In this document: piece by piece, positions 923-25,012 of the stretch | Layout of the letters: each line of letters starts with the position of its first letter | Numbering within the stretch: position 1 is the stretch's first letter | Assembly (NCBI GenBank): GCA_015351705.1 | Contig: JADIIM010000056.1 | Span: forward strand, 1-54,123 | Origin: Aeromicrobium sp. | GTDB taxonomy: Bacteria; Actinomycetota; Coriobacteriia; Anaerosomatales; Anaerosomataceae | Reading direction: 5' to 3' | Length of the DNA: 54,123 bases | Made by a program: the position numbers and the translations under genes | The notes under the pieces: model-generated | Database searches by the model: none | What the model was told of the DNA's origin: nothing | Seen by the model: the letters and a program-made list of their open reading frames with translations, nothing else

Positions 923-3900
923 TCACCGCGCGTAGACGACCCCCGGCGTGATGCCGCCGTCGGGCGATGGATGGCACGGGCCGATGCACGACCCGCCCGC
1001 GCCCGCACGCACGAAGTCGATCACAGGACGGATGAGCGCCTCGTTGGAGGGCGACCCGTGGCTCACGTGGCACGTGGCACACGCGAAGCCGTGGTCGCGC
1101 ACGTGCAGACCGTGGAGCGGACCGGCGGTCGCGTCAGCGAACCAGCTCGCAGCGGCGCCCGCGTCCCCGGTCCCGGTCTCATCGTAGTAGGTCGTGTACC
1201 GGTGGCAGTCGTAGCAGAGCAGGTCCGCGTTCGCGGGCAGGGCGCCCAGGTAGGGCGACACGAGCACCGGCGCCTCGGCAGACACGTGCGGCCCGGCGAC
1301 GGCAGGCGATGAGCCCGCCACAGCGTGGCAGTCGATGCAGTAGAGCACGGAGTCGTTGTCCCAGGCGCCCACGAACGCACCGGCGTTGATGGTGGTGGCC
1401 ACCGACTGCTCGACCGCGTGCACGCTCGCGTTGCCGGTTCCGAAGTCCGCCGAGACGTCCCGCGCACCTTCGAGTCCGGTCGCGTCCTGATACGCCGAGT
1501 GGCACTTGTAGCAGAGCTCGTACTCGTTGGCGATCGGCTCGGCGGGCGTGTGCGTGGCGGTCGCGCCGAACGTGCCGAGGATCCGTCCGTAGGCGGCGGG
1601 TGCGGCGGCGGGCGTCGCGGTCGCCTCATGGGCGTTGTGGCAGTCGGCGCACTCGACGTGGCGCACGAACGGCGCCGTCTCGGTGGGCACGTGGGTGTCC
1701 TCGACGGCCCCGACCGGATGGCGCGACGGGCCCACGCCGCCGAGATCGGCGACCGCGAGCCACGGCGCGCTGCCGGCGCGCTCCACGCCGCCGAAGCGCA
1801 GCGTCACGGTCTCGGCCGTGTCGAACGCGGTCCCGGCGCCGTTGGCCTTGAAGACCTGCACGCTCGGCACGGTCGCCTCTGCCGCGTCACGGCTCCAGAA
1901 GCCGCCGTTGCCCACAAAGAGCTCGGCCTCACCGTCTCCATCGAGGTCACCGGCGGCAAGCGAGCCGGTGCGGTACCGCGTGCCGGTGGCATACGCCACA
2001 GGCGCGGCAAGGTCACTGCCGCCCTGCGCGTAGACGTTGATGCTGCTGCTGCCGAGGCCCGCGTCGATCGCCACGGCCAGCTCGGCGCCGGCCTCGCCTG
2101 ACCAGACGTCGGCGATGAGCGTGTCGCGCGCCGCACCCGCGGCCGCGTTGATGGCGTAATCGTCGATGAGCGTGCCGCTCGCGTCGTACAGGCTCACGGC
2201 CGAGGCCGCAGGCTCGCCTGAGTTGGCGACCGCGACCTCGATACCGGCGTCCGGGTGCGCGTCGCCGATGCTCGGGCCGCGCACGCCCGCAAGCGCGGCC
2301 ACCGGGCCGAAGTGGGTGGTGAACGTGTCGGGCGTCACGCCCGACTCGGTGAGCGCCACGATCGACGGGCTGAGCGCGTCGTCGTCGGTCACCACGACCT
2401 CGGCGAAACCGTCGGCGGGAACACTCAGGTCGCCCGCCGCCATACCGCTCATGCTCGAAGCCACGCCGCTTGCGGTGTACACCAGCTCGAAGCCGGGCGT
2501 GACGACCGCCGGCGGCTCGGCCCAGCGCAGCACGTACACGTCGCCGGTGTCCGCGTCGCCGAGGACGAGCTCGGGCATGAGGCCCGCGTCGTCGAAGACG
2601 TCGGCCACGAGCGCGAAGTCGGGGGTCACGCCGGAAAGCGACGCGTCCACGGCCGAGAGGTCGACCTCACCGGGGCCGTAGAACGAGGTCAGGCCCTTGA
2701 GCGGGTCCTGGATGTAGACGGTCAGCCGATGCGTGCCGGGATCCACAACGACAACGTCGATGCGGCCGTCGCCGTCCACGTCGCCGGTGGCGACGGCGCC
2801 CGAGGTGCCCGACGGCACGTACGTCCGCGGGCCGACGAGGCTACGCGGCGCCGCGTCCGCGGCGTCCGTGCCCCACACCGCCACCCCGCCGAACGCCGAG
2901 GTGGTCGACTCGGGCGAGATGCCCACCACGAGCTCGAGGTGCGCGGCGGCCTCGGCCGGATACTGCAGCGAGGCCAGGTCGGTAGCGGCCGGGCCGTCGA
3001 CGTCGTGGCAGGACAGGCACAGCGCGCTGCCCTCGATCTCAAGCAGCGTGGGTATCGGCGCGCCGGTGCCGTCGTCGCGGCCCATCGGCGCGTGGCACAC
3101 CTGGCACTCGCCCACGCGGCGCTCGGCGTCATCGGCCGCCCACTCACCGGGGATCGTGGTCACCGCCGAAGACGCGGCGTGTGCCGAGTCCTCATACGCC
3201 GCCTCGCCGGGATAGGTGTCACGCGCCTGGTCGTGGCACGCGAAGCACAGCGTGCGGTCGTTGGCGGTCACGGTAGCGGTGGCCGCCAACGCCGGCGGCG
3301 TGATCGACGCGTTGATGAGCGGCGCGATCGCCGAGCCGTGGCCCGCATGACAGATGCTGCAGCGGATATCGGTCCCGCTCGCGGGATCGGGAAGCGCCGT
3401 GTAGTGCCCGGTCTGCTCGTAGATCGCCACGCCGTCGAAGCGGCTCTCCTCGCGGACGCCGTGGCACGTGCCGCAGTACGCCGAGCCCTGGAACACCAGG
3501 TCGCCGTCGCTCGTGCGGGAACGCAGCAGCGCCGGGTACGGCGTGCCGGTGGTGATCTTGTCGGCGCCGTGGGCGTCGTGACAGCTGCTGCAGTACTTCA
3601 CCGAGGGCCCGAACGGGCTCGCTGTAGGCGCAAGCGTGTGCACCGACGTCTCCTCGAACGACGCGCCCACCGGCGTTCCGGAGCCGAGCGCGTCGACACC
3701 GTGGCAGACGTAGCAGAGCTCGGTGTCGCCCTTGTCCGAGGGAAGCACGAGTGCGAGCGCCGAGCCGGTCATCTCCTGGCTCTCGGCGTCGATGCGCTGA
3801 ACGGTGCCCGGAGCGGTGTGTGCACGGTGACACATGGCACACGTATCGGGCGCCGGACCCACCGCGACGTGCGGCACGTCGGCCAGGGCGGCGGAGGGGC

Positions 3901-3976
3901 TCACGAGCACGAGCGCACACATAAGTGCAACGCCCGTGAGGAACGTCGTCCGGTCGAACCCCATACCCCGGATCAT
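923..3976 (-). CDS. Secreted multihaem c-type cytochrome with central FG-GAP/VCBS propeller (14 haem motifs)
   Basis: The 1017-residue protein starts with a signal peptide (hydrophobic stretch about residues 8-32, ending near SAALA). I count 13 CXXCH motifs and one unusual C-X3-CH (CIGPCH) near the C-terminus. Eight haem sites lie in residues about 44-320 and six after about residue 774. Between them is a haem-free region of about 450 residues with FG-GAP/VCBS-type calcium-loop repeats such as DVDGDGRIDVV and DLDGDGEAEL, expected to form a beta-propeller. It is probably exported, haem-loaded, and used for electron transfer at or beyond the membrane. No C-terminal anchor is visible. A second ATG at codon 5 is an alternative start. 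It lies downstream of the CWB2 wall protein with a separate possible promoter. Class is certain; physiological role is inferred. Confidence 0.9.
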   Translation of the reverse strand: MIRGMGFDRTTFLTGVALMCALVLVSPSAALADVPHVAVGPAPDTCAMCHRAHTAPGTVQRIDAESQEMTGSALALVLPSDKGDTELCYVCHGVDALGSGTPVGASFEETSVHTLAPTASPFGPSVKYCSSCHDAHGADKITTGTPYPALLRSRTSDGDLVFQGSAYCGTCHGVREESRFDGVAIYEQTGHYTALPDPASGTDIRCSICHAGHGSAIAPLINASITPPALAATATVTANDRTLCFACHDQARDTYPGEAAYEDSAHAASSAVTTIPGEWAADDAERRVGECQVCHAPMGRDDGTGAPIPTLLEIEGSALCLSCHDVDGPAATDLASLQYPAEAAAHLELVVGISPESTTSAFGGVAVWGTDAADAAPRSLVGPRTYVPSGTSGAVATGDVDGDGRIDVVVVDPGTHRLTVYIQDPLKGLTSFYGPGEVDLSAVDASLSGVTPDFALVADVFDDAGLMPELVLGDADTGDVYVLRWAEPPAVVTPGFELVYTASGVASSMSGMAAGDLSVPADGFAEVVVTDDDALSPSIVALTESGVTPDTFTTHFGPVAALAGVRGPSIGDAHPDAGIEVAVANSGEPAASAVSLYDASGTLIDDYAINAAAGAARDTLIADVWSGEAGAELAVAIDAGLGSSSINVYAQGGSDLAAPVAYATGTRYRTGSLAAGDLDGDGEAELFVGNGGFWSRDAAEATVPSVQVFKANGAGTAFDTAETVTLRFGGVERAGSAPWLAVADLGGVGPSRHPVGAVEDTHVPTETAPFVRHVECADCHNAHEATATPAAAPAAYGRILGTFGATATHTPAEPIANEYELCYKCHSAYQDATGLEGARDVSADFGTGNASVHAVEQSVATTINAGAFVGAWDNDSVLYCIDCHAVAGSSPAVAGPHVSAEAPVLVSPYLGALPANADLLCYDCHRYTTYYDETGTGDAGAAASWFADATAGPLHGLHVRDHGFACATCHVSHGSPSNEALIRPVIDFVRAGAGGSCIGPCHPSPDGGITPGVVYAR

Positions 3977-9163: not shown

Positions 9164-10039
9164 CTACCGGGTGATCTTGGTGACCACGTCGAACACCGCG
9201 TCGATCAGCGCGGAGCCCGACCCGCTGGTGGCGTGGAGCTCGACGGTCACGGTGATGGGACCGTCGATGAACACGCCTGCGGCGAATCCGCCCTTGACGC
9301 CGGCCATGACGGTCTTGCCGCCGATGGTGCGCGACGTCGTCGAGTCCGGATACTGCCCGGCGATGGCGGTTTGCGCGGCCACCGCGGCCTCAGCGTTGAC
9401 GTGCTGCTGCACCTCGATCATCAGCTGATCCGCCGAGTCGGCCAGCGGGATGTACTGGCGGCTGAGCGACGCAAGGTCGGCGAGGATGCCCTGGGCAACG
9501 TAGCCTTCGATGGTATCCGGCACCCACTTCACGAGGCTCACGACCGGGCCCTGCGGCGTATCGCCGGGGTCGTCGGACGGCACGGTGCCGCCACCGGTGT
9601 CACCGCTGCCGCCGGTGTCACCCGTGCCGCCGGTCCCGGCATCGGCCGAGCCGCTGTCCACCGCCGGACGGCGGCCCGCATCGATCTCGGCGAGCTGGTC
9701 CGCGGCATTGCCGTACGTGGGGTCCCGATCCAGGACCGTGCGCAGACGCTCGCGTGCGGTCACCAAATCGCCCTCGGCGATCGCCTTCTGCGCTGCGGCG
9801 TAGGCGGCGGCGAGATCGCCGTGCTCGTCGCACGTGATGACGCGGGTGGTCACGCCGTACTCGGAGACCTGGGAGGCGGGAACCTCGACCTCCTCCGTGT
9901 TGTCTTCGATGATCTCGCCGGCGGTGCAGAGCACGATCTCGCCGGTGAGCACGGTCACTTTGCGCTCACAGCCCGTTGTGAGCGAGACGGCGGTCACCAT
10001 GAGGACCGCCACCATCAGCAGGGTCAGCGTCCTTCTCAC
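9164..10039 (-). CDS. Putative lipoprotein with TPR-like segment
   Basis: The 291-residue protein begins with a signal sequence ending SLTTGC, which resembles a lipobox although position -3 is not the usual Leu. Residues about 75-110 look like one or two TPR-type helices (AAAYAAAQKAIAEGDLVTAR). A low-complexity Gly/Thr/Asp linker follows at about 127-155, then a C-terminal domain of about 130 residues of unknown fold. Its GTG start overlaps the stop of the upstream membrane protein by 4 bases (GTGA), with GGAG 9 bases upstream, so the two are translationally coupled. Function unknown; probably a surface protein working with its membrane neighbour. Confidence 0.72.
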   Translation of the reverse strand: MRRTLTLLMVAVLMVTAVSLTTGCERKVTVLTGEIVLCTAGEIIEDNTEEVEVPASQVSEYGVTTRVITCDEHGDLAAAYAAAQKAIAEGDLVTARERLRTVLDRDPTYGNAADQLAEIDAGRRPAVDSGSADAGTGGTGDTGGSGDTGGGTVPSDDPGDTPQGPVVSLVKWVPDTIEGYVAQGILADLASLSRQYIPLADSADQLMIEVQQHVNAEAAVAAQTAIAGQYPDSTTSRTIGGKTVMAGVKGGFAAGVFIDGPITVTVELHATSGSGSALIDAVFDVVTKITR

Positions 10040-11637
10040 GTACCATCACTCCTTGATCCGGCCATCAGGCCACCGGCCAACGTTAGCGCGATGGCGCCCG
10101 CGGCGCCAGCGACAGCGGCGATCGCCCACACGGTGGGGTCGCCGGAGAAGTCGATTCGCGAGAACTCGGAACCGTAGTCCACCTGCACGTCGGACGGGAT
10201 GAACGACGTCAGAGTTCGCAGCGGCGTCGCGGCCGCCGTCCACCAGGCGCCCGCCGCCGCCAGACCGGCCAGCGCGCGGAGCCACAGGTCCCGGATGGCC
10301 GAACGCTCGATGGCCATGCCGAGCGCCACGAGTCCGAGGGCGAGCGCGAGCCACGGGCCCGCGACCTCGTACCCGTACAGGTCGAACACCGCACGCAGTT
10401 GGGTGCCGTCGGTGCGCAGGCCGTTGACCGCGCCGGTCATCGTCGGGCGCGTGAGTGCGACGACCGCCACCGCGACCGATCCGAGCGCGACGACCGTGGC
10501 GAGTGCCCGGAGTGCGACGGTGGCGCGCGACCCCCGGGCCGGGGCGGAAGCGGAGGCCATGACAGAGCCGGCTGCGGCGCTGCCGCCATCGGCTGGCCCG
10601 GCCGACGGCAGCGTCAGGCGGTGGCGCCCCGTGCCCCAGGCGATGCCTGCGGCGAGCACGCCGATCACCCCGCCGGCGATCATCGGCTCGAGCACCATCG
10701 GCTGTGGGCCGAGCGGACCCACGGCCCACTCGACGATCGCGATCAGGCTCACGCCGATGGGCACGAGAACGTAGGCGGCGGCAACGGCCTCAGGCCGCTG
10801 CGCGCGAAGCGCCATCATCGTCCCCGCCACCGAGAAACACACCGCGATGCCGTAGCCGATCGCTCCAGGGCCAGTGAGGTCGGCCACAGCGATCGCCTGC
10901 CGTGAGAGCGCGACACCCGCGAGCAGCCCGGCACCGGCCAGCCCGCCGAGAGCGGCGGCGACAGCCGATACCCGCAGCGACCCCCGGCGCGCCGCCCACG
11001 CAAGGGCCAGCACGAGCGCGACCCACAACGCACCGGCAAGCAGCATGTAGAGCTCCTCGCGCGCGTAGCGGACCAGCGGCGAGAACGAGCTGGGGCGCTC
11101 CCAGTTGCCGAGCACCGCCGCCGCGGCAGCAAGCGCGAGCAGGGCGCCGCCTGCGCGCGACAGCCACTGACGGGAGGTCACGGCGAGCGCCACGGCGAGC
11201 ATCCCGCCCCAGCTCACCACGGAGAAGAACAACACCTCGGTACCGGGCGGGGCATCGGTGTACCGGTGCGCCATCACGAGCCACGGTGCCACCGCGAAGC
11301 CGCCGACACCGGCTATCGCCGGCAGGAGCCACTCGGCGGGCGTGGACGCCGCCACGCGCGGAAGACCGACGCTCATCAAGACGCCCACGAACGCCCCGGC
11401 GGCCGCAAGGACCGCCATCGCGGCCGGCGACGAATGCTGATGTGCCTGCGTGCCGAGCACGCTCGAGGCGGCAGTCGCGACGAGCACGACGAGGAAGCCG
11501 AGCGCGGCCCCCGTCCACCCGCCTGCGGGGATTGACTGCGGCTGCGGCCTCGAGCGGGCCGGCGCCGAAGAGGAAGGGCCGGGGCGAGCCCGGCCCTTCC
11601 CTTCGCGCGTCACGTCTGGAACAGACGTCACGAGCAC
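10036..11637 (-). CDS. Polytopic membrane protein of unknown function
   Basis: Up to 533 residues with about 12-14 hydrophobic segments in two blocks: residues about 45-320 with roughly ten helices, and about 365-525 with four, separated by a Gly/Ala/Ser-rich loop. There are no CXXCH motifs and no quinone- or haem-binding signature I can identify. The open frame starts at a GTG directly after the stop of the six-haem cytochrome (TAGGTG). However, a strong hairpin lies in the first 22 codons and no clear ribosome binding site is seen, so the true start may be further in, near residue 50. The N-terminal 45 residues are polar and Pro/Ser/Arg-rich. Function cannot be assigned. Confidence 0.65.
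   Translation of the reverse strand: MLVTSVPDVTREGKGRARPGPSSSAPARSRPQPQSIPAGGWTGAALGFLVVLVATAASSVLGTQAHQHSSPAAMAVLAAAGAFVGVLMSVGLPRVAASTPAEWLLPAIAGVGGFAVAPWLVMAHRYTDAPPGTEVLFFSVVSWGGMLAVALAVTSRQWLSRAGGALLALAAAAAVLGNWERPSSFSPLVRYAREELYMLLAGALWVALVLALAWAARRGSLRVSAVAAALGGLAGAGLLAGVALSRQAIAVADLTGPGAIGYGIAVCFSVAGTMMALRAQRPEAVAAAYVLVPIGVSLIAIVEWAVGPLGPQPMVLEPMIAGGVIGVLAAGIAWGTGRHRLTLPSAGPADGGSAAAGSVMASASAPARGSRATVALRALATVVALGSVAVAVVALTRPTMTGAVNGLRTDGTQLRAVFDLYGYEVAGPWLALALGLVALGMAIERSAIRDLWLRALAGLAAAGAWWTAAATPLRTLTSFIPSDVQVDYGSEFSRIDFSGDPTVWAIAAVAGAAGAIALTLAGGLMAGSRSDGT
11572..11600 (-). terminator. Strong stem-loop after the six-haem cytochrome
   Basis: A perfect 12-bp stem (GGAAGGGCCGGG) with a 5-base loop lies 38-66 bases past the cytochrome stop. 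The minus-strand downstream sequence is only moderately T-rich (TCTTC). It could be a partial terminator lowering expression of the downstream membrane protein, or an mRNA-stability element. Confidence 0.6.
11612..11628. other. Short inverted repeat ACGTCT-N5-AGACGT
   Basis: A 6-bp perfect inverted repeat with a 5-base loop sits between the cytochrome stop and the 12-bp stem-loop. It could be a small hairpin or a protein-binding site; nothing identifies it further. Confidence 0.4.
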
Positions 11638-12861
11638 CTACTTGTTGTGGCAGGCCTCGCACACGCCGCGGTTATCCATCCGCAGGAGTGCGTTGCCGTC
11701 GCCCGGCGGGACCGAGCCCAGACCGTCGCCAGGCGTATCGCCGTAGCTCGAGTCAGGCTGCGGATCGGTGCTGTCGGCGACCGCGGCATAGCCGGTCATC
11801 GAAGCGCCAGAGCCGTGCGCCACGTGGCAGCTCAGGCAGTCGAGCCAGTCGGAGTCCTCAAGCGCCCACGTGCCAGCCTCGGCCGGATCGTGTGCGAGCG
11901 GGATGGTCTCCGTGGTCACGAGAGCGCGAGCGCCGGAGTAGTTGGACAGCGGCACGTTCACCGGATGGCGGTGACGCGTGACGTAACCGAACCCGTCGTT
12001 GGCGTCATAGTCACTCGACGTGTTCACGTACTGCGTGTGGCACGTCGCACACCAGGCGCTGATGCCCTTGGTGGCATCGTCACCCGGTGCCTTGGCGTAC
12101 CGCGGCGTCGTGTAGTCCGGCTCGTACAGCGCCATCTGGGCAGCGCCGGCCTCATGGAGCAGCCAGCCGCCGACCGGATAGCCGACCTCAGACGAGATGA
12201 CCCACGGGTCGGGGTTGCCAAGACCGTCGTAGCCACCCACCGTGATGCCGGCACGGGCGCCGGTAGTCGGATCGATACCGGCAACGACGTCCTTCAGCAG
12301 GCGGTAGTTAGACGAACCGTGAACGTCATGGCAGACGCTGCACGAGATGTCGACCTGCTCGCCACCGGTGCTGATGATGCCGTCACGGCCATCAGGGCCA
12401 GCGCCGTAGGCGACCCATGTCACGCCACCCGGATAGTGCTGGGTGGGGAACTGCATGGGATCGAAACCGCCACCGTTGAGCGACTCGCCCGCGGTGTTGT
12501 TGATGCGGTCTGTTCCGGTGTCGTCACCATCGTTGGCCTCAAAGATGCCGTCCCACACGTTGGTGTCGGCACCAAGCATGCCGGCGCCGTGGCACGTGTA
12601 GCAGAACTCATCGATGGTCTCAGCGGTGGAGATGAGCAGCGCGCTGCGCGGAGCAGTCCCCGTGACCGGGTGCGGGTCAGTGGGCGTCCACGTGATCGGG
12701 CTTGCTGCTGTGTGCGCGCGGTGACAACCGGCACACGCGTCAGTGCTCATGGAGTAGCCACCGTGGACCGAGTAGTTGGCCATCGCCACACCCGGGACCA
12801 TCAGGACTACCGTCGCGACCACGAGGGCCGCAAGGATCATCGAGCGCTTCCTCACCAGCAT
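11638..12861 (-). CDS. Secreted six-haem c-type cytochrome, third component of the formate dehydrogenase operon
   Basis: A 407-residue protein with a signal peptide (positive n-region VRKRS, hydrophobic core, cleavage near AMA). It has six CXXCH motifs: CAGCH, CYTCH, CSVCH, CATCH, CLSCH, and CEACH three residues from the C-terminus. The start is the ATG at 12859-12861, overlapping the Fe-S subunit stop as TGATG with GGAGG upstream; a GTG one codon earlier is less likely because it abuts the ribosome binding site. It lies where classical formate dehydrogenase N has its cytochrome b gamma subunit. It therefore probably accepts electrons from the Fe-S subunit outside the membrane and passes them to other cytochromes. 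That role is inferred from position. Confidence 0.88.
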   Translation of the reverse strand: MLVRKRSMILAALVVATVVLMVPGVAMANYSVHGGYSMSTDACAGCHRAHTAASPITWTPTDPHPVTGTAPRSALLISTAETIDEFCYTCHGAGMLGADTNVWDGIFEANDGDDTGTDRINNTAGESLNGGGFDPMQFPTQHYPGGVTWVAYGAGPDGRDGIISTGGEQVDISCSVCHDVHGSSNYRLLKDVVAGIDPTTGARAGITVGGYDGLGNPDPWVISSEVGYPVGGWLLHEAGAAQMALYEPDYTTPRYAKAPGDDATKGISAWCATCHTQYVNTSSDYDANDGFGYVTRHRHPVNVPLSNYSGARALVTTETIPLAHDPAEAGTWALEDSDWLDCLSCHVAHGSGASMTGYAAVADSTDPQPDSSYGDTPGDGLGSVPPGDGNALLRMDNRGVCEACHNK

Positions 12862-13751
12862 CACACCTCCCCCATCGACTCTTCGGCCAAACGCTGCCTG
12901 CGGGCGATGAGAGCCACGAGGCCAGCGCCGAGGGCCGCCGGAACCAGCGCGGCCTTGGCGAACGGACTGGACACGACGCTGGAGATCAGCGGCGTCACAT
13001 GGTCCTCGACGAACGGGTCCGCCTTCGGTGCGATGACCAGACCCTTCTTGCTCGCCCAGAACACACTACCATCACCCTGCGCGGAGACGTAACCATTGGC
13101 GGAATCCTGAATGAAGTCGTAGACACGCTGCCTGGTGTCCCACTTCATGGCCTTGGCCGGGCAGGTGTACACGCAGCTCGGCTCATGATCGAGCGAACCT
13201 TCCGTGCCGACCGGTGCGCCGGGCAGGTTGTTGTAGTTCGTGGGAAGCGGGTTACCGTACTTCCCTACGTACTCCGCCTGGACGGCGGGATCGAGCGCGT
13301 CGATGTCCCCGGCGCGGCCGAAGCACATGGTGCACTTCCAGGCCTTGTCGTTGTTCGGGAACTGGTCGCTTCCCTTGCCGATCTTGGGGTAGCCACCGCG
13401 ACCGCAGTCGATCTGGCACTGCTTCGTGCACTGGACGCCCTTGTCGTTGAACTCGCCCGGCTTGCACAGCGTCGGGTCGATGTAGACGGCGCCGGACTCG
13501 GTGTCCTTCTTGATGGCGCTGAACGGGCAGCGCTTGACGCACGGCGGGTTCGAGCAGTGCCAGCAGCTGTACCGCATGAACGGGCCCATGTCTACGCGCT
13601 TCTGCGACTTGATGATGACGCGCTGGTCAGGAGCCGTCTTGTGAACGCCCGGATTCAGCGCCTTCATCTGCCATGTGCGCTTGCAGCTGATGACACAACC
13701 GTTGCAACGCATGCACTTATCAACGTCCTGGAGGATCGCCATAACAGTCAT
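12861..13751 (-). CDS. Formate dehydrogenase Fe-S subunit, ferredoxin-type with C-terminal membrane anchor
   Basis: The 296-residue protein has the cysteine pattern of FdnH/DmsB-type electron-transfer subunits: CMRCNGCVISC near residue 13, CWHCSNPPCVKRCP near 63, then CTMC paired with CVYTCP. An extra stretch with CTKQCQIDC lies around residues 108-118. A hydrophobic segment (about 258-282) followed by RRQR suggests a single C-terminal membrane anchor, as in FdnH. No signal peptide is present, so it probably crosses the membrane by riding with the Tat-exported catalytic subunit. It sits 17 bases downstream of that subunit. The clusters would pass electrons from the molybdopterin site to the six-haem cytochrome. 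The extra Cys stretch is unusual. Confidence 0.88.
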   Translation of the reverse strand: MTVMAILQDVDKCMRCNGCVISCKRTWQMKALNPGVHKTAPDQRVIIKSQKRVDMGPFMRYSCWHCSNPPCVKRCPFSAIKKDTESGAVYIDPTLCKPGEFNDKGVQCTKQCQIDCGRGGYPKIGKGSDQFPNNDKAWKCTMCFGRAGDIDALDPAVQAEYVGKYGNPLPTNYNNLPGAPVGTEGSLDHEPSCVYTCPAKAMKWDTRQRVYDFIQDSANGYVSAQGDGSVFWASKKGLVIAPKADPFVEDHVTPLISSVVSSPFAKAALVPAALGAGLVALIARRQRLAEESMGEV

Positions 13752-13768: not shown

Positions 13769-16700
13769 CTAGACTACAGCCTTCTCGATACGGCACAGAC
13801 ATGCTTTCGACTCAGGGATCGTCGTGTTCGCGTCACCCGCGTCAATACAGACGTCGTTGGCGCGAGCACCCGTTGAGAGGCCCTGATCGCCCCAGTGCCA
13901 CGGGATGGCGATGATACCCGGAGCCACGCGCTGGTTGCCCTGGGTTCCGGCGCCCACGCGGGCGATGTAACCCTTGGTCCAGCCGGACGGGGAGAACTGG
14001 CTCTCGTTCGTGAGCGTGCCCATGCTGTCACCGCGAGCGGTGATGACGTTGACCCAGTCGCCGTCCTTGATGCCCATAGCCGCGGCATCGATGGAGTTCA
14101 GCTCGATCCACGGATGCGGCTCGGCCTCGACGTTCCACGGGTTGTTCCGGGTGATCGGGCCACCCTGGAAGTGCTCGACACAGCGGATCGTGGTGAGCAC
14201 GAACGGGAACTCGCTCGCAGCCACGTCACGACCAGCGACAGGCGTGTCGGTCGGAACGAGGTTCCACTGGGTGCTTGCGGCCTGGCCGGTGATACCGGCG
14301 TTCGTCGTCATGTTGCGACCCCAGACCGCTGCAAGGTCCGCGCGAGGCGTCTCGTACGGCTCCGTGTGGGCCGGGAACCGGCCGGGAAGCACGTGTACGG
14401 TGCCGATGCCGGTGTCCGGCCTGTCGGCCATCCTGTTGATCGTGCGGTACCAGCGCGAGTAGTTGAGTGTCGCGGCGTTGGTGCTGACGAAGAACCGCGC
14501 CGCCGAGTCGGGACCCATGTAGAAGTCCGCGACGTCTCCGGGGATGTCCCCGTTGTTGTAGAGAACGCGGCGGTTGACGAGCCACGAGTAGCCCCACGCG
14601 GGATAGGCGAGGGTGCCGTTGCCATCGGCGTTGTCCCGGCTCTTCGAGCGGTTGAACACGGCCCAGAGCCCCTGCGCCGTTCCGCCGGAAGCCGCCGAGT
14701 GACGGTTCGTGGTGTTGTCGGTGCTGTACGCACCGGTGTACAGCCACGAACAGCCGACCGCTGGCGTGCACAGCTCCCGGTAGACGAGTTCGGCGATCCA
14801 CTCACTGCCGTAGACCGTGCCGCTGGTGGGAGAAGCCTCAGCGCCGCGCCAGATCTCGGCGGTCCCGCTGTTGGCGGTCTCGAAATCGTCCACGTCGAGC
14901 GTGGGCGTCCAGCCGTAGCGGCTGCCGTACAGCGTCTGATAGGCGCTTGTGTACGTCCAGCTCTTCGCGTCCCACACGTCCGTGATGTGCGAGAAAGCGC
15001 CTTCCTGGTCAAGCGCGTAGGCCAGACGGAACAGGAGTTCTATGTCCGACTTGCTCTTGCCCTTGGGCAGGGTGGCCCGCTCGCGCCACTGCAGCACACG
15101 GCCGGAGTTGGCGACCGAGCCGGCTTCCTCGACGTGCGAGCACGCGGGGAGCAGGTAGGTCACACCATCGGGCCGGCGGCTGACAGCCGCGGTCTCGGTG
15201 TGGAACATCTCGGTCACGACCAGGGTGTCCAGATTGTAGAACCCGGCACGGATCGCTTCCTGGTTGGGCTCGGTCACCGCGGGGTTCTGACCCCAGACGA
15301 CCATGGCCTTGATCCGCTGCGGGTCGCCGTCAGCGCGGGCCGCGTTGCGGAACATCAGGATGTGGTTCTGGCCGTTGACCTTGGGCCACAGGTTGTACAG
15401 CGCGTCGATGTCTGCACGCGGAGCGCCAACCGGCACCCAGGACGAGTCCGAACCCGTCGCACCCTGCGCGTAATCCGCGAAGAAGTTGCGGGTCATGTTG
15501 TAGAAGCCACGCTGCTGGAGGCCGAAGGCGGCAGTGTTGTACGCGTCGTCGTACGAACCGTCCATGTCGCCCCGAGTCCCGGTGCCATTGACCGGCAGGC
15601 CCCACAGGGTGTCCATGTACTTGCCGTAGGCGTTGTTGCTGCCGTCTGCCATCACACTCGGGTTGCCCGAGTAGAAGGGGATGAGGTGCTGCAGCAGGCC
15701 CATGTCGGTGGAACCCTGCACGTTGTGGATGCCACGCAGCGCGTTGATGCCGCCGCCGGCACGACCCATGTTGCCCATGAGCATCTGGAGGACCGTGAAG
15801 CCCTTGACGTTCTGGGCACCGCAGGTGTGCTGGGTGAGGCCCATCGCGTAAAGCATCGTGGTGGCCTTGTAGCCATCCTCGCGCGGGTCCTGCACACCGA
15901 GTGCACCGCTGACGGTGCTGCACCGGCCGTGGGCGATGTACGCGTTGGCCAGGAACTCGATGTCCGCCTCGCTCACGCCGCAGATGTCGGCAACGACCGA
16001 CGGCGTGTACGGATCGATGTGCGCCTTGAGGCGGTTGTAGACCGTGTTCGGATCGGCATCGACCGTGGCGGCCTTCTTCGGGAAATCGAAGATCGTCTGC
16101 GCGGCGGTCTCGCCACCCACGAGAGGATCGCCCGTGATGCCGACGTCCTCACGCTCGTAGTCCGAGCCGTCCGGCAGAACGATGAACCGAGCGTCGGTGT
16201 ACTTCGAGCCGTACTTGACGCCGCTCTGTGACGTGCTCGCACCGCCGCCGCTGAGCTTGTTCGTGTAGAAGATCTGCGTCGCCGTTCCGTCGCCGCCGTG
16301 GTTCAGGAACTTGAAGAACTCGGTGCGCTGCGACGCGCTCACGCTCGTGTCGCCCGCGTCCTCCATCTTCTCGATGATCCGGCGAACGACGCCGTTGAGG
16401 AGTGCGATGTCTGTGCCCGGGCGCTGCCGGATGAAGCGATCGGCCTGCACGGCCGTGCGCGTCTTCCGCGGGTCGACGACGACGAGGGTCCCGCCGTTGT
16501 CACGGGCGTGGTTGATGTGCGCCATACACGCCGGGTGGTTCTCCGACGGGTTAGCGCCCCACACGACCACCATCGACGCGTTGCCGATGTCGGTCCAGTT
16601 GTTCGTCATGGCGCCTCGTCCGAATGCGGCGGCCAGACCGGCCACCGTGGACGAGTGTCATATACGGGCCTGATGCTCGACGTTCGTGGTTCCGAACTGA

Positions 16701-17296
16701 GCGATCAGGCGGCGGTACACGTAGTTGGGCTCGTTGTTGAGGTGCGAGGAACCGAAGAACGCGACCGACTTGCTGTTGTAGCCGTTCGACGCGTCCACGG
16801 TACCGCGAGCGTCGACGAGACGCTCCGCGATCTCGGCCATGGCGGTCTGGAGGCCCATCGGGGCCCAGGCGCCGTCGCCGGTGCGCTTCCATGCGACACC
16901 CACAGCGTCTCCGCCGGAGCTGCCCGTGAAGTCGGCGACGCCGTTCTCGGCGAAGGTGTTGGTCGAGACGCCGAGGCGACGCTTGTTCGTCACGAGCTGA
17001 TAGGTGCCGGCGCCCTTGGCGCACAGGCCACCATCGTTGAACGGCGACATGTGGTCGCCATAGATGTCGAGCACGTTGCCGTCCGCATCGACGTCGATGA
17101 GCTGCCCGCAGCTTGCGGAGCAGTACGGGCACGTCGTGTGGTACGTCGCGGCGACTTCAGCCGCGTCTGCCCGCGAGGGGCAGACGGCGAAGTCGAGGCC
17201 CACGGCGCCTGCGGCGGCAGCCGTCGCGCCGACCTTCAAGAAATCGCGGCGCGAGAGCTCGAACTTCCCTCCCTGACTTTTGTCCTTTGTAGCCAT
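13769..17296 (-). CDS. Selenocysteine-containing formate dehydrogenase catalytic subunit (Tat-exported, Mo/W-bis-MGD, 4Fe-4S)
   Basis: Read through an in-frame TGA at 16658-16660, this is one 1175-residue protein. Residues 1-45 contain the Tat motif SRRDFLKVG and a hydrophobic Ala-rich core. A 4Fe-4S site follows (CPYCSASC plus GGLCAKG). The TGA is residue 213 in the context HQARI-U-HSSTVAG, matching the Sec-His active-site loop of FdnG-type formate dehydrogenases. Downstream motifs GRGAMTNNW, NPSENHPA and DPRKTRTA are the bis-MGD binding segments of that family. The start has GGGAAGAG upstream. It would oxidise formate to CO2 outside the membrane. The protein is longer than FdnG (about 1015). 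Expression needs SelA/B/C/D encoded elsewhere. The two half-frames are not a pseudogene: both halves keep full conservation. Confidence 0.92.
16615..16655 (-). promoter_or_regulatory. Bacterial SECIS element directing UGA recoding
   Basis: Two bases after the TGA, the minus strand forms a perfect 7-bp outer stem (CTCGTCC with GGACGAG). An upper 7-bp stem (GGTGGCC with GGCCGCC, one G-U pair) is capped by a GGTCT loop. The apical GGU is the SelB-binding hallmark, and the loop lies 18 bases past the UGA, within the bacterial range. The element is inside the coding sequence, as in all bacterial selenoprotein genes. Confidence 0.9.
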
Positions 17297-17426: not shown

Positions 17427-17476
17427 AAAAAAGACCGAGCACGCGCGTCTCACCGACGCGTCCGTGGATCGGTCTT
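17427..17476 (-). terminator. Intrinsic terminator in the formate dehydrogenase leader
   Basis: On the minus strand GACCGA pairs with TCGGTC, enclosing a second perfect 6-bp stem (CGCGTC with GACGCG, 5-base loop), followed by six T residues. This is the clearest intrinsic terminator in the window. It lies 131 bases before the formate dehydrogenase start and after a long structured leader, so it most likely acts as an attenuator. Confidence 0.88.
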
Positions 17477-17479
17477 CAG

Positions 17480-17655
17480 CCATCAATGGCGACTCCCTTA
17501 CCCCTGAAGCAAACCGCACGCAGCCCCTTGCCGGGGGGCCTGCCTACAGGTCTCCTTTCCAGGATGGGAGGCGCCGTCGTTTCCTTCGACACCCTATCGG
17601 CTTGTCGTCCGTGGCCCCGGTGGGGCTTTAGGACAACACGCTCGGAGACACTCTT
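17480..17655 (-). ncRNA. Structured leader RNA, candidate Moco (molybdenum/tungsten cofactor) riboswitch
   Basis: The minus strand between the -10 box and the terminator is rich in stems: a GCCCC/GGGGC hairpin, GTCG/CGAC, a CGCCTCC...GGAAAGGAGACC block, and a second GCCCC/GGGGC hairpin. The 5' CTCCGAGC and 3' GGGAG ends can pair to close the fold. The CTCCGAGC, GGGGCCAC and GCCTCC...AAAGGAGA strings resemble what I recall of the Moco RNA motif, which precedes molybdenum-cofactor and Mo-enzyme genes. The gene downstream is a Mo/W enzyme, which fits. The match is from memory and not aligned, so the class is tentative. That this is a structured, attenuated leader is much firmer. Confidence 0.55.
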
Positions 17656-17657
17656 CG

Positions 17658-17663
17658 ATTGTA
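17658..17663 (-). promoter_or_regulatory. -10 box (TACAAT) of the formate dehydrogenase operon
   Basis: A minus-strand TACAAT gives an expected transcript start near 17651, at the beginning of the folded leader. No good -35 hexamer is seen at 17 bases, which would fit an activator-dependent promoter given the palindrome just upstream. Confidence 0.5.
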
Positions 17664-20368: not shown

Positions 20369-21961
20369 TCAGATGTTGAGATCCGTATGGCATCTCAAGC
20401 AAAGTTCGGACCCACGGTACGGGGCGATCTGAACGTTGCGGTAGTCGAGTGCGCCGTGGCACTCATAGCAGATGCGCATGTCGTGCGGGCCGGTGGCCGG
20501 GCTGACCACGTGGATACCGCCGCTGCCGAAGCCGATATGACAGTCGTCGCAGTAGTACGGCTCGCCCTTCTTCTCCTCCACGATGAAGTGCACCGCGTGC
20601 TCGGCCAGACCGGCTACCTCGATCGCAGTGGCCGGCTCGGTGGCCATCTCCTCATGGCACGGCACGCAGTTCTCGGCCACGAGTGCGGTCGAGCGCACAG
20701 AATCGTGATGGCAGTTCTGGCAGAACTCCCGGTCGGTGTGGCAGACGTTGCAGTCCTTGACGAGCGAACCGTTCAAGGTGGCGTGGTCGGCCATCCAGGT
20801 CGCGGGGTGCGGCATCGTCGTGATGTGGCATGTCTGGCAACTCGCCGGAGTGTGGCACACCGCGCACAGACCCTCCTGAGCGAGATACTGCCTACCATGG
20901 ACGGTGCTCCACTCCGGCTTGCGGTGGTCGGCCGGGATGACCGGCAGGCTCGTCTCGTCGTTGGCCATCGTCACGCCGCCGTTGTGGCACTCGACGCACG
21001 TCTCGGGAGTGTGGTGACACTGCGTGCAATACGCTGCGTCTTCCAGGGCCGGCTCGCCGTGATCGCCCACCAGGAAGTCGACGGTGTGATCGGTGGGCAC
21101 GAGCTCGAACTCGGGGGTGTGGCACTTCTCACACGCCCCGTCGGCGACGACCCCGTGCCCGTCGTGCAAGAACCCGTGACAGCGGTAGCACGAGCGCATC
21201 TGGGGCCGGTCCGTGCCCTCGGGCCCGTGCGGGAACACGGGATGACACGCCTCGCAGCGGTACGCCCGCTCCAGGTGCGCCCCATGGCCGAAGACGAGGC
21301 CCTCGACATCGAAGTCGTCGATGTCCGGGTGGCAGTAGACACACTGCGAGATGGTCACCTCGGCATCGGGGTCGATGGTCGCCGTAGGCTCGTGGGCCAC
21401 CTCGGGCAGAGAGCTGATGTACAGCGCCGGCATCGGCCCGACGTCCACGCGCTCATCGCGGTGACATGAGTCGCAGTCGACCGGTGCGTCGTGGCACATC
21501 ATGCAGCCGTTGGTCTCCAGCGCCGCCACGCGGGCGTGCGGCCGGTACCGCCAGTCGTCGGTGTGGGTGGCCGGACGCAACTCCGTAGGCTCCGAGTGAC
21601 ACGACGCGCACTCACCCGACGCGATCTCACCCTGCGGGCCGTGGCGCAGGCCGTGGCACGCGAAGCAGGTCTCCATCGGCGGCGTGGGCGACGTGCCGCC
21701 CGCGTGCGCCGCGCCGAGATGGCACGCGGTGCACTGGACGACGATGTGGACCGCGTGATCGAAGACGAACCCGTCGCGCTCGGCGCCGCCCAGGCTGGGA
21801 TGGCACGGACGGCACACCTCGGCCGAGGCCTGACCGCTCACGTCGATCGCCCGCGGACCGGCACTCGCAGCGCCGCGAGGGTAGGCAAGCGTCACCACGG
21901 CGACGACCGCGAGGGCCGCCGCCATGGTGACAGTGAACCTGCCTCGGGCGCGTCTGGTCAT
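20369..21961 (-). CDS. Secreted 20-haem c-type cytochrome
   Basis: The 530-residue protein has a signal peptide (TRRARGRFTVTMAAALAV, cleavage near ASA) and 20 CXXCH motifs spread evenly to the C-terminus (first CRPCH, last CLRCH), about one haem per 26 residues. I chose the ATG at 21959-21961, which follows the upstream stop by 7 bases and gives a proper signal peptide; the longer frame adds 20 residues of non-signal sequence. Many distal His residues (HAVH, HGAH, HGLRH) could be second axial ligands. No CXXCK catalytic haem of NrfA type is present, so it is probably an electron wire and not a nitrite reductase. It is the largest carrier of the cytochrome b operon. Confidence 0.9.
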   Translation of the reverse strand: MTRRARGRFTVTMAAALAVVAVVTLAYPRGAASAGPRAIDVSGQASAEVCRPCHPSLGGAERDGFVFDHAVHIVVQCTACHLGAAHAGGTSPTPPMETCFACHGLRHGPQGEIASGECASCHSEPTELRPATHTDDWRYRPHARVAALETNGCMMCHDAPVDCDSCHRDERVDVGPMPALYISSLPEVAHEPTATIDPDAEVTISQCVYCHPDIDDFDVEGLVFGHGAHLERAYRCEACHPVFPHGPEGTDRPQMRSCYRCHGFLHDGHGVVADGACEKCHTPEFELVPTDHTVDFLVGDHGEPALEDAAYCTQCHHTPETCVECHNGGVTMANDETSLPVIPADHRKPEWSTVHGRQYLAQEGLCAVCHTPASCQTCHITTMPHPATWMADHATLNGSLVKDCNVCHTDREFCQNCHHDSVRSTALVAENCVPCHEEMATEPATAIEVAGLAEHAVHFIVEEKKGEPYYCDDCHIGFGSGGIHVVSPATGPHDMRICYECHGALDYRNVQIAPYRGSELCLRCHTDLNI

Positions 21962-21968
21962 CTGGGTG

Positions 21969-23216
21969 CTACCGGCCTCCCGGGAAGACGGCGAGGACCT
22001 TGTGCAGCAGGTTGTCGGCACGCACCGCCTCCTGCTGGTGGATCATGTCAGCCGAGAACACGGCGAACTCCTCGCCCGCGTCGGCGTGCTGGTGACAGGT
22101 CGCGCACGTCTCACCCACACGAGCGGGGTGCGTGCTCGACTCAGGATCGGTGGAGGGCAGCACCTCGTGCGCGGGGTGACAGCCCCAGCACGGCGGCGCG
22201 TCCTCGGCGAGACGCTTGTACGCCTGGCCGTGGTACGGGTCGTGATAGCTCTCCCAGCGGTCAAGGTGGCAGTCGGCGCACATCTGCTCGCTGGCGAAGT
22301 ACAGGTCCGTCACAGCGGCCTGTGTGTCCAGGCGGGCGATGTCGTGCCCGCCGTGGCACGAGCCGCACGTGGCCGAGGCATAGTCACCGTCGGCCAGTGC
22401 CGCACCATGGGCGGACGCCTCGTACGCGGCGGTGATGTCGTCCTCGTCATGGCATCCGGCCGCGGAGCACGACAGCCCGGCGTTCACGTACCACACGCGC
22501 GTGGGCGGCTTGGGGTCGGCATAGGCGAAGTCGATGTGGCAGTCCGGACACGTCAGTTCGTTGTGCGCCGATGCCTCCAGGCCCGTGACGTGATAGGACT
22601 TGATGCCGTCGGCGCCGCTCTTGATCAGGTTCGGGCTTCCGTGACAGGCAAGGCAGCCGTTGCCGGCCGTGTAGATCATCGGCTCCGGCGGCGACCAGAC
22701 CACCCGCTCGCTCACGTGGCAGACGTCGCAGTCGTTCTTGGCATGACACATCGAGCACTCGGTGGTCAGTCGCTCCTCGGCCGGCGTCACGTGCGGCGCG
22801 CCGGCCCAGTCGGCCGTGTGCGACGCAGGCCGCAGGTCGACGAGCTTACCGCCGTGGCACGCCTCGCAGTCGCCCTTGGCGATGACGCCCTGTGGGCCGT
22901 GGTAGAGCCCGTGACAGTTGAAGCAGTCCTTCATCACGGGCGTCTGCGTGCCGGCCGGCCCGTGCGGGAACGTCGGGTGGCAGGAGCTGCACTGATAGGT
23001 GATGTGGTTGCCGTGGCTGAAGACGTACTTCGGGTTGTCGGTCTCGCTGTAGTCGGCGTGACAGGGTCGGCACTTCTCCGGATACACGTCGCCGCCGACC
23101 TCGATGAGGATCGTCGCTGCGATCGCGGGGACCGCGAACGCGAGAACGGTCAGGGCGAAGAGGACCCCCAGTCGCTTCGCACCCATGCCGGCGGGTGCTC
23201 TGAATCGCTTCGTCAT
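21969..23216 (-). CDS. Secreted multihaem c-type cytochrome (12 CXXCH plus one CX4CH)
   Basis: A 415-residue protein with an N-terminal signal or anchor helix (about 14-34, GVLFALTVLAFAVPAIA). It has 12 CXXCH motifs and one CSAAGCH (CX4CH), a spacing known from cytochrome c3-type proteins. The N-terminal half (CRPCH, CSSCH, CFNCH with GLYHGPQG) resembles the 20-haem neighbour, and the C-terminal half (YHGQAYKR, CWGCHPAHEVLPS) resembles the 7-haem neighbour. It therefore looks assembled from modules shared with both flanking genes. The intergenic distance to the 7-haem gene is 44 bases. Expected to be extracytoplasmic and electron-transferring. Confidence 0.9.
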   Translation of the reverse strand: MTKRFRAPAGMGAKRLGVLFALTVLAFAVPAIAATILIEVGGDVYPEKCRPCHADYSETDNPKYVFSHGNHITYQCSSCHPTFPHGPAGTQTPVMKDCFNCHGLYHGPQGVIAKGDCEACHGGKLVDLRPASHTADWAGAPHVTPAEERLTTECSMCHAKNDCDVCHVSERVVWSPPEPMIYTAGNGCLACHGSPNLIKSGADGIKSYHVTGLEASAHNELTCPDCHIDFAYADPKPPTRVWYVNAGLSCSAAGCHDEDDITAAYEASAHGAALADGDYASATCGSCHGGHDIARLDTQAAVTDLYFASEQMCADCHLDRWESYHDPYHGQAYKRLAEDAPPCWGCHPAHEVLPSTDPESSTHPARVGETCATCHQHADAGEEFAVFSADMIHQQEAVRADNLLHKVLAVFPGGR

Positions 23217-23260
23217 ACCCCTCGTTACCTGCTTTCCCGGGTCCAGGCGCGATACGGAGG

Positions 23261-24148
23261 CTACTCGCCCCCACCGCCGAACAGGCGGCCGATCGCACCG
23301 AAGACGGAACGGACCAGCGAGATCAGCGGATTGTCGTCCACGATCTCTGAGCGCCCGTGGATGAAGACGGCGTAGGCGGTGTAGTTCTCATCCACACCGA
23401 AGTGGCACCCGTCCTGTCCGCACGTCTCAACGAGATGCGACTCATGGACACGCGAGCCGCGCTCGCTCGAGGGCAGGATGTCGTGCCAGCCGTGGCAGTC
23501 CCAACACGCGGGTGCGTCCTCGGCGCCACGCTTGTACGCGGCACCGTGGTAGTAGTCGTCGTAGCTCTCCCAGTAGTCCTCGTGGCACCGTCCGCAGACC
23601 TCCCAGCCATCGGCGTGGAGCGCGGCGCGACCCGAGGGGTTGTCGGTGAGCATCTGAATCTCGTGCGAGCCGTGACAGTCGCCGCACAGCGGCTTGGGCG
23701 CCGTGGTCTCCTCGACCGAGCCGCCGTTGCCGTTGGTGACCGTGGGGCGGTGCACACCCTTGCCGAAGGCCACCGATGCCTCGTCATGGCAGTTGCGGCA
23801 GGCGGTCTTGGCCGTGGTGCGCCACTCCCCGTTGTTGTGCGGCGACTTATAGGTGAAGTCCACGTGGCACCCGACGCACTGCTGATCGCCGTGTGCGGAC
23901 ACCTCGATCGCGGTCCCGTCGATGTGATAGCTCATGACAACGCCATCCCTGATGCGCACCAGGGCGGGGTCGCCATGGCAGACGAGACAGCCGGACTTCG
24001 ACTCCGAAGGCAGGGTGAAGTCGAGCTCATACGGAGCCGTGGGCGAGACCGACGCCTTAGGCTCCTGCCCGTAGGCTGCCACCGGCGCCAGCAGCGCAGC
24101 GGCAAGCACCACCCCTGTGAGGATCGTCCGGCTCATACGGGAACCCAT
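23261..24148 (-). CDS. Secreted seven-haem c-type cytochrome (6 CXXCH plus one CX4CH)
   Basis: The 295-residue protein has a signal peptide (SRTILTGVVLAAALLAPVAAYG), six CXXCH motifs and a CGQDGCH (CX4CH). The start ATG at 24148 has GGGGG 4 bases upstream and follows the cytochrome b stop by 9 bases; an ATG four codons later is an alternative. YHGAAYKRGAEDAP followed by CWDCHGWHDILPS is shared with the 13-haem neighbour. The C-terminus ends in a possible amphipathic helix and a GGGGE tail. It directly follows the cytochrome b gene, so it is the likely first acceptor of electrons from the membrane quinol oxidase. Confidence 0.9.
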   Translation of the reverse strand: MGSRMSRTILTGVVLAAALLAPVAAYGQEPKASVSPTAPYELDFTLPSESKSGCLVCHGDPALVRIRDGVVMSYHIDGTAIEVSAHGDQQCVGCHVDFTYKSPHNNGEWRTTAKTACRNCHDEASVAFGKGVHRPTVTNGNGGSVEETTAPKPLCGDCHGSHEIQMLTDNPSGRAALHADGWEVCGRCHEDYWESYDDYYHGAAYKRGAEDAPACWDCHGWHDILPSSERGSRVHESHLVETCGQDGCHFGVDENYTAYAVFIHGRSEIVDDNPLISLVRSVFGAIGRLFGGGGE

Positions 24149-24157
24149 GCGACCCCC

Positions 24158-25012
24158 TTACTCCGCCTCGGCGACGGCCGCGACCGCTGGTGCGGCATGC
24201 GCGTCGTCATGACCGTGGCCATGGGAGACGAGCTTCTCCTTCGGATACTTCTTGAAGCCGAAGAAGTCCAGACCGATCAGGAGGTCTTCGTTGACCGCAA
24301 GGTAGAAGTGCACGACGGTCATGATGATGAAGAGCCAGTTGATCGCGTAGTGCAGGATGCGCATCCACGCACCCGCGACGGCGACACCGCCCACGAGCGG
24401 GCCGAGCCACCAGCCGACGAGGATCTCGCGCATGCTCAGTTCGATCAGAGGGAGCTCCTGGGTCAGCAGCGAAAGCCCGGTGAAGCCCTGCGCCATCATC
24501 AGCACCGCGAAGAGCAGGTAGGACATCTTCTGCATGACGTTGTACTCGGCCACATGCGGCTTGCTGTCGGAGAAGTATCCGTAGTATGCGAGCACGCCGA
24601 GCGCCGACTGCAGGTCGCGCTTGGTGACACCGAACTTCTTGTAGTCGCGGTTCTTCGAGAAGAACGCGTACCAGACGCGCCACAGGAAGTTGAGTCCGAC
24701 GATGGTCATCGCCACGTAGTGGACCCACCTCATCGGGGTGCGGCCACCGTCGAAGAACGGGAACCGGATGTACAGGCCGCTGAAGGCCAGTGCGAGCATG
24801 CACAGAAGGTGGATCCAGTGCATGAGCTTTGGCAAGAAGAGGGGCAGGTGGTCGTGCTCAGGCCACTTGCCCTCGATCCACTTCTTACGGAATCGACCCT
24901 TGGGGATGCTGATCGAGAAGTGGAACAAGACGAACAGCCATACCCCGATGAACAGCAGAATGAAGACTGCGTCCATCCATACGTTCACCTGCGCGAGAAG
25001 AATCGCCGCCAC
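24158..25012 (-). CDS. Di-haem cytochrome b (b561/formate dehydrogenase gamma type)
   Basis: A 284-residue membrane protein with about five hydrophobic segments. Candidate haem-b His ligands lie within helices: HWIHLLCM near residue 65, HYVAMT near 98, HYAINW and HFYLAV near 224-243. This is the fold of the cytochrome b561/HydC/FdnI family that exchanges electrons between quinone and a partner on the outer face. The tail is His-rich (SHGHGHDDAH). The GTG at 25012 is the first possible start after an in-frame stop but lacks a spaced ribosome binding site; the ATG twelve codons later has AGGTGA 8 bases upstream and may be the real start. As first gene of the multihaem operon, it probably oxidises menaquinol and feeds the secreted cytochromes. 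Confidence 0.85.
   Translation of the reverse strand: MAAILLAQVNVWMDAVFILLFIGVWLFVLFHFSISIPKGRFRKKWIEGKWPEHDHLPLFLPKLMHWIHLLCMLALAFSGLYIRFPFFDGGRTPMRWVHYVAMTIVGLNFLWRVWYAFFSKNRDYKKFGVTKRDLQSALGVLAYYGYFSDSKPHVAEYNVMQKMSYLLFAVLMMAQGFTGLSLLTQELPLIELSMREILVGWWLGPLVGGVAVAGAWMRILHYAINWLFIIMTVVHFYLAVNEDLLIGLDFFGFKKYPKEKLVSHGHGHDDAHAAPAVAAVAEAE

Follow-up and report, generated by a model that had tools for sequence, protein, structure and literature searches.

Two apparent genes in a draft bacterial genome read as one selenocysteine formate dehydrogenase gene downstream of a molybdenum cofactor riboswitch

Insertion of selenocysteine (Sec) at UGA codons followed by a SECIS element is a long-established mechanism, including in the formate dehydrogenase FdhA. 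Among bacterial selenoproteins FdhA is the most widespread one (PMC1794560; PMC13188914), so the formate dehydrogenase (FDH) described here adds to an already known class and its recoding mechanism is not new. The closest described systems are the FdhA enzymes of solved structure (PDB 8cm4, 6sdr and 9qm0; also 1h0h), which were its best matches in the structural database, and Escherichia coli FdnG (PDB 1kqf), which, as this enzyme appears to be, is the catalytic subunit of a Sec-FDH, exported by the Tat route and paired with an Fe-S partner. Among cultured organisms, the formate-using Anaerosoma tenue and the Parvivirga-type isolate Es71-Z0120 (PMC9686372) probably belong to the same order as the host of this locus, which is itself probably a Coriobacteriia bacterium of the order Anaerosomatales (OPB41). 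The named close homologues of the FDH come from Coriobacteriia and Actinomycetota MAGs.

The window, meaning the whole stretch of DNA that was analysed, is 54 123 nucleotides long. The features of the locus, in the order of transcription, are as follows.

17537..17659, minus strand: Moco (molybdenum/tungsten cofactor) riboswitch aptamer RF01055, matched over the full model length at 71.3 bits against a gathering threshold of 36
17427..17478, minus strand: hairpin resembling a terminator and followed by a U run, lying between aptamer and gene, from folding
13769..17296, minus strand: predicted Sec-containing FDH alpha subunit, 1175 aa in one frame, whose start has a Tat-like twin arginine (RRDFLK)
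16660-16658, minus strand: in-frame TGA, predicted Sec codon 213, followed by His214; TGA in 24/24 aligned orthologues
16615..16655, minus strand: predicted bacterial SECIS hairpin with 7-bp and 8-bp stems and a GGUCU loop, from folding and synonymous-site conservation
12861..13751, minus strand: Fe-S electron-transfer subunit (Fer4_11), probable FDH beta subunit, from profile matches
11638..12864, minus strand: multiheme c-type cytochrome with six CXXCH motifs, from motif and profile matches
10036..11637, minus strand: polytopic membrane protein with many hydrophobic segments, a possible further partner

An ORF caller using translation table 11 split the FDH alpha gene into 17296..16658 (212 aa) and 16645..13769 (958 aa). 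When TGA was translated as a residue, 17296..13769 on the minus strand formed one 1175-aa frame in which U213, in the context HQARI-U-HSSTVAGLAAAFGRGAMTN, was the sole internal stop, and downstream of it the frame was uninterrupted for 962 residues. The original prediction had joined the 212- and 958-residue proteins into one FDH with the TGA at the Sec-His active-site position. The single frame and the alignment of U213-H214 with Sec-FDH structures bear out both claims; its coordinates for the UGA and the SECIS also held, and the strand, which it had not given, is minus. As judged from the sequence, the two apparent genes are one FDH alpha gene with UGA predicted to be read as selenocysteine, which corrects the annotation split. 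The overall reading, of which we are highly confident, is that this is one selenoprotein gene encoding an exported catalytic subunit of the FdnG/FdhA type. SelB carrying Sec-tRNA(Sec) would bind the GGUCU-capped SECIS just downstream, and we infer that UGA 213 is thereby decoded as selenocysteine. Next to His214 and Arg521, Sec213 would then act as a ligand of the Mo/W-bisMGD cofactor.

Several blocks spread along the FDH alpha sequence matched structurally solved Sec-FDHs, and U213 fell at the Sec position of those enzymes. The Pfam families PF00384, PF04879 and PF01568 (molybdopterin oxidoreductase, Fe4S4 and dinucleotide-binding domains) all scored over their cut-offs. The catalytic Arg of FDH is conserved as R521, in GGGINALRG. 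The Sec-His position, the Fe4S4 motif and the catalytic Arg are thus common to this protein and the FdhA structures, although it is about 160-200 residues longer than solved FdhA and carries extra inserts. These insertions probably explain why it scored 432 bits against the FdnG equivalog TIGR01553, below the curated cut-off of 814.2 bits, and why the cut-off of the NCBIfam FdhA equivalog was also not reached. Because the equivalog cut-offs were missed, the protein is classed as an FdnG/FdhA-like Sec-FDH and not as FdnG itself.

The partner genes also set the locus apart. Unlike E. coli FdnG, the FDH has no adjoining gene for a cytochrome b of the FdnI type; none was found in its operon, as would be expected of an FdnGHI complex, and the nearest cytochrome b561 gene lies at 24158-25012. 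The locus differs from the solved FdhA systems in its partner genes, among which are those for a multiheme cytochrome and for a polytopic membrane protein that had no Pfam or NCBIfam match and belongs to no known family. More multiheme cytochromes and the cytochrome b561 are encoded at 20.4-25 kb of the window. Multiheme c-type cytochrome genes are dense around the FDH as a whole (923-3976, 11638-12864 and 20369-25012, the last stretch including cytochrome b561), with 6 to 20 CXXCH motifs each, and this clustering is suggestive of extracellular electron transfer.

Metal-dependent FDHs are able to work in both directions, and a Sec enzyme that is real but serves mainly to reduce CO2 to formate within the reductive glycine pathway, or to reduce sulfur compounds, has to be considered; we regard such a role as unlikely, though well short of negligible. 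In its favour, the FDH of cultured Anaerosomatales has also been assigned to CO2 reduction, and a similar FdnGHI-like complex to thiosulfate/sulfur respiration in one strain (PMC9686372). Against it, the Tat-like signal, the Fe-S subunit and the multiheme c-type cytochrome suggest an exported, respiration-linked enzyme, and formate supports growth of two cultured Anaerosomatales isolates when thiosulfate or Fe(III) is supplied (PMC9686372). Under the preferred reading, the FDH would most likely oxidise formate and hand the electrons on to multiheme cytochromes by way of the Fe-S subunit. The description of the organism as a high-turnover formate oxidiser, also part of the original prediction, was not borne out, since the sequence yields neither rate nor direction.

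The published account of the cultured relatives touches this locus at further points. One of its strains has a molybdopterin oxidoreductase inside a multiheme gene cluster, as is the case for the FDH here, and neither selenium nor selenocysteine is mentioned in the main text (PMC9686372). The same paper cites the FDH of a cultured relative as two consecutive proteins (MCL4079382-3), one of them described as only the catalytic domain. As a speculation, a single gene interrupted by a Sec UGA could underlie the two.

The RF01055 aptamer was found upstream of the FDH gene in 17/18 homologous loci. Loci with a Moco aptamer before a Sec-FDH include L030, L031, L036, L038, L041, L046, L050, L052, L053 and L098. 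The hairpin at 17427..17478 is the probable expression platform of the riboswitch. The z-score of this stretch was only -1.07 and a simple consensus terminator scan did not list the hairpin; a comparable hairpin and T run occurred about 100 nt after the aptamer in 7/16 relatives checked. With a Moco riboswitch and a probable terminator ahead of the gene in its transcript, FDH expression would be tied to, and follow, cofactor supply. Literature searches on 'molybdenum cofactor riboswitch' or Moco RNA found no pairing with FDH, and searches on Coriobacteriia Sec-FDH found nothing. What is least documented in the system is the conserved placement of a Moco riboswitch ahead of a Sec-FDH that has multiheme partners, and this arrangement may already have been reported.

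A broader proposal is offered tentatively, as a possibility that we would not yet favour. The main FDH of the Anaerosomatales/OPB41 may be a conserved module of Moco riboswitch, Sec-UGA catalytic subunit, Fe-S subunit and multiheme cytochrome, with the transcription terminator occurring in part of the clade. Through such a module, extracellular electron transfer driven by formate would be linked to the supply of Mo/W and Se, and the Se dependence would have escaped the published analysis of the order. The results indicate that a subsurface group which is widespread and has barely been cultured depends on selenium for its formate metabolism.

The Sec machinery was only partly recovered from the window's genome. 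selD was present (contig C29, 2181-3098; L016) and itself carried an in-frame TGA, in AG-U-AAK, the same as in four relatives; fdhD was also present. Genome-wide searches of the assembly, which is rated 96.75% complete, did not find selA, selB or selC (tRNA-Sec). Matches to the selB model TIGR00475 were all below the cut-off, the best two being EF-Tu fragments at contig ends and the remainder scoring as other translational GTPases do, and the sole above-threshold match to RF01852 was identified as tRNA-Ser(TGA) by ARAGORN. Among the related genomes searched, 48/61 contained selA. In G029, G045 and G053 selD was not found, and these genomes carry a TGA-bearing FDH without selA.

Absence from so complete an assembly could mean that selA, selB and selC have been lost, that the UGA now terminates translation and that the FDH is a dying gene. 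Gene order argues against this. In the sister genome G011, selD is followed by a yedF-like gene, a PIN gene, a large surface-protein gene, selA and selB, then by a two-component pair, a multiheme cytochrome, a GAF/SpoIIE-like regulator and selC, and later by a permease and a polyprenyl synthetase (gene names partly assigned by reading of the sequences). In the window's genome, contig C29, which holds selD together with the PIN gene, breaks off at its left end (base 3) within the surface-protein gene, and contig C8 starts, with base 1 at its left end, at the equivalent of 277 bases ahead of the permease. The stretch of G011 that corresponds to this gap is 19.8 kb long and contains selA, selB and selC. 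Since their syntenic place falls between contig ends and is bracketed on both sides, the absence of the three genes is best read as an assembly gap, and true loss was rejected. In G013, where selA and selC are likewise missing, a contig end (the right end of C3) falls in the same surface-protein gene just after selD. Both drafts therefore break in that one gene, between selD and selA, which would account for the missing Sec genes in each. The frame that stays intact for the 962 residues past the UGA, the conserved form of the SECIS and the retention of a selD with its own UGA also speak against decay, which we judge to be very improbable. We infer instead that the organism has selA, selB and selC. 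The original prediction had called for a full Sec machinery and had named absence of selA, selB and selC as grounds for rejection: selD was found and the other three are indeed missing from the assembly, but synteny places them in the bracketed contig gap. An apparent lack of Sec machinery in a draft genome, here most likely an assembly gap, is a trap for surveys of Sec traits.

Conservation of the recoding site was assessed in 24 aligned orthologues from the order, the window's gene included; the set was picked by presence of a U/C-H motif, which excluded fragments and frameshifted copies. TGA was kept at the Sec position in all 24 across the order. Counted from the UGA, 53 nt formed a hairpin whose lower stem has 7 bp and whose upper stem has 8 bp (-27.4 kcal/mol), and none of the dinucleotide shuffles was equally stable (0/200; z -2.85). 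The GGUCU loop sits 18 nt after the UGA, the same distance as in the SECIS of E. coli fdhF. The predicted loop was thus found, while the two 7-bp stems originally described folded as stems of 7 and 8 bp. Among synonymous recodings, 70/3000 folded as stably as the SECIS and 18% yielded some SECIS-like shape; because the gene is G+C-rich (70% G+C DNA), stability of the hairpin is in itself modest evidence.

The strong evidence for a SECIS is its conservation across orthologues. Over the 15 codons after the UGA, synonymous-codon identity was 0.79 compared with a gene mean of 0.57, and among 1012 windows one non-overlapping window matched this value. The loop Gly codon was GGT in 24/24 orthologues, a codon that makes up 28 of the 126 Gly codons (22%) in the window's FDH gene. 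In the LAA register 82% of cells were counted as paired, compared with 31-55% when the register was slid as a control; covariation support was weak, with two pairs changed on both sides. Two Cys-containing homologues that do not belong to the clade gave no SECIS-like fold. The alternatives, either that there really are two genes or that a Cys codon was altered by a sequencing error, can be dismissed as next to impossible: although the 958-aa frame possesses its own GTG start and Cys versions of FDH exist outside the clade, the same TGA and the same downstream sequence recur in 24 independently listed orthologues, the break cuts the active site, and neither model accounts for the constraint at synonymous sites. 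In one subclade LAAAF is replaced by LGRTF and the GGCC arm is shifted by one base, and the hairpin is still formed.

The window's FDH is 77% identical to that of G013, 69% to those of other families of the order and 56% to that of the sister genus G011. SelD of the same genome is 91% identical to SelD of G011, against 56% for the FDH. This pattern of identities suggests two FDH clades, arising through paralogy or transfer.
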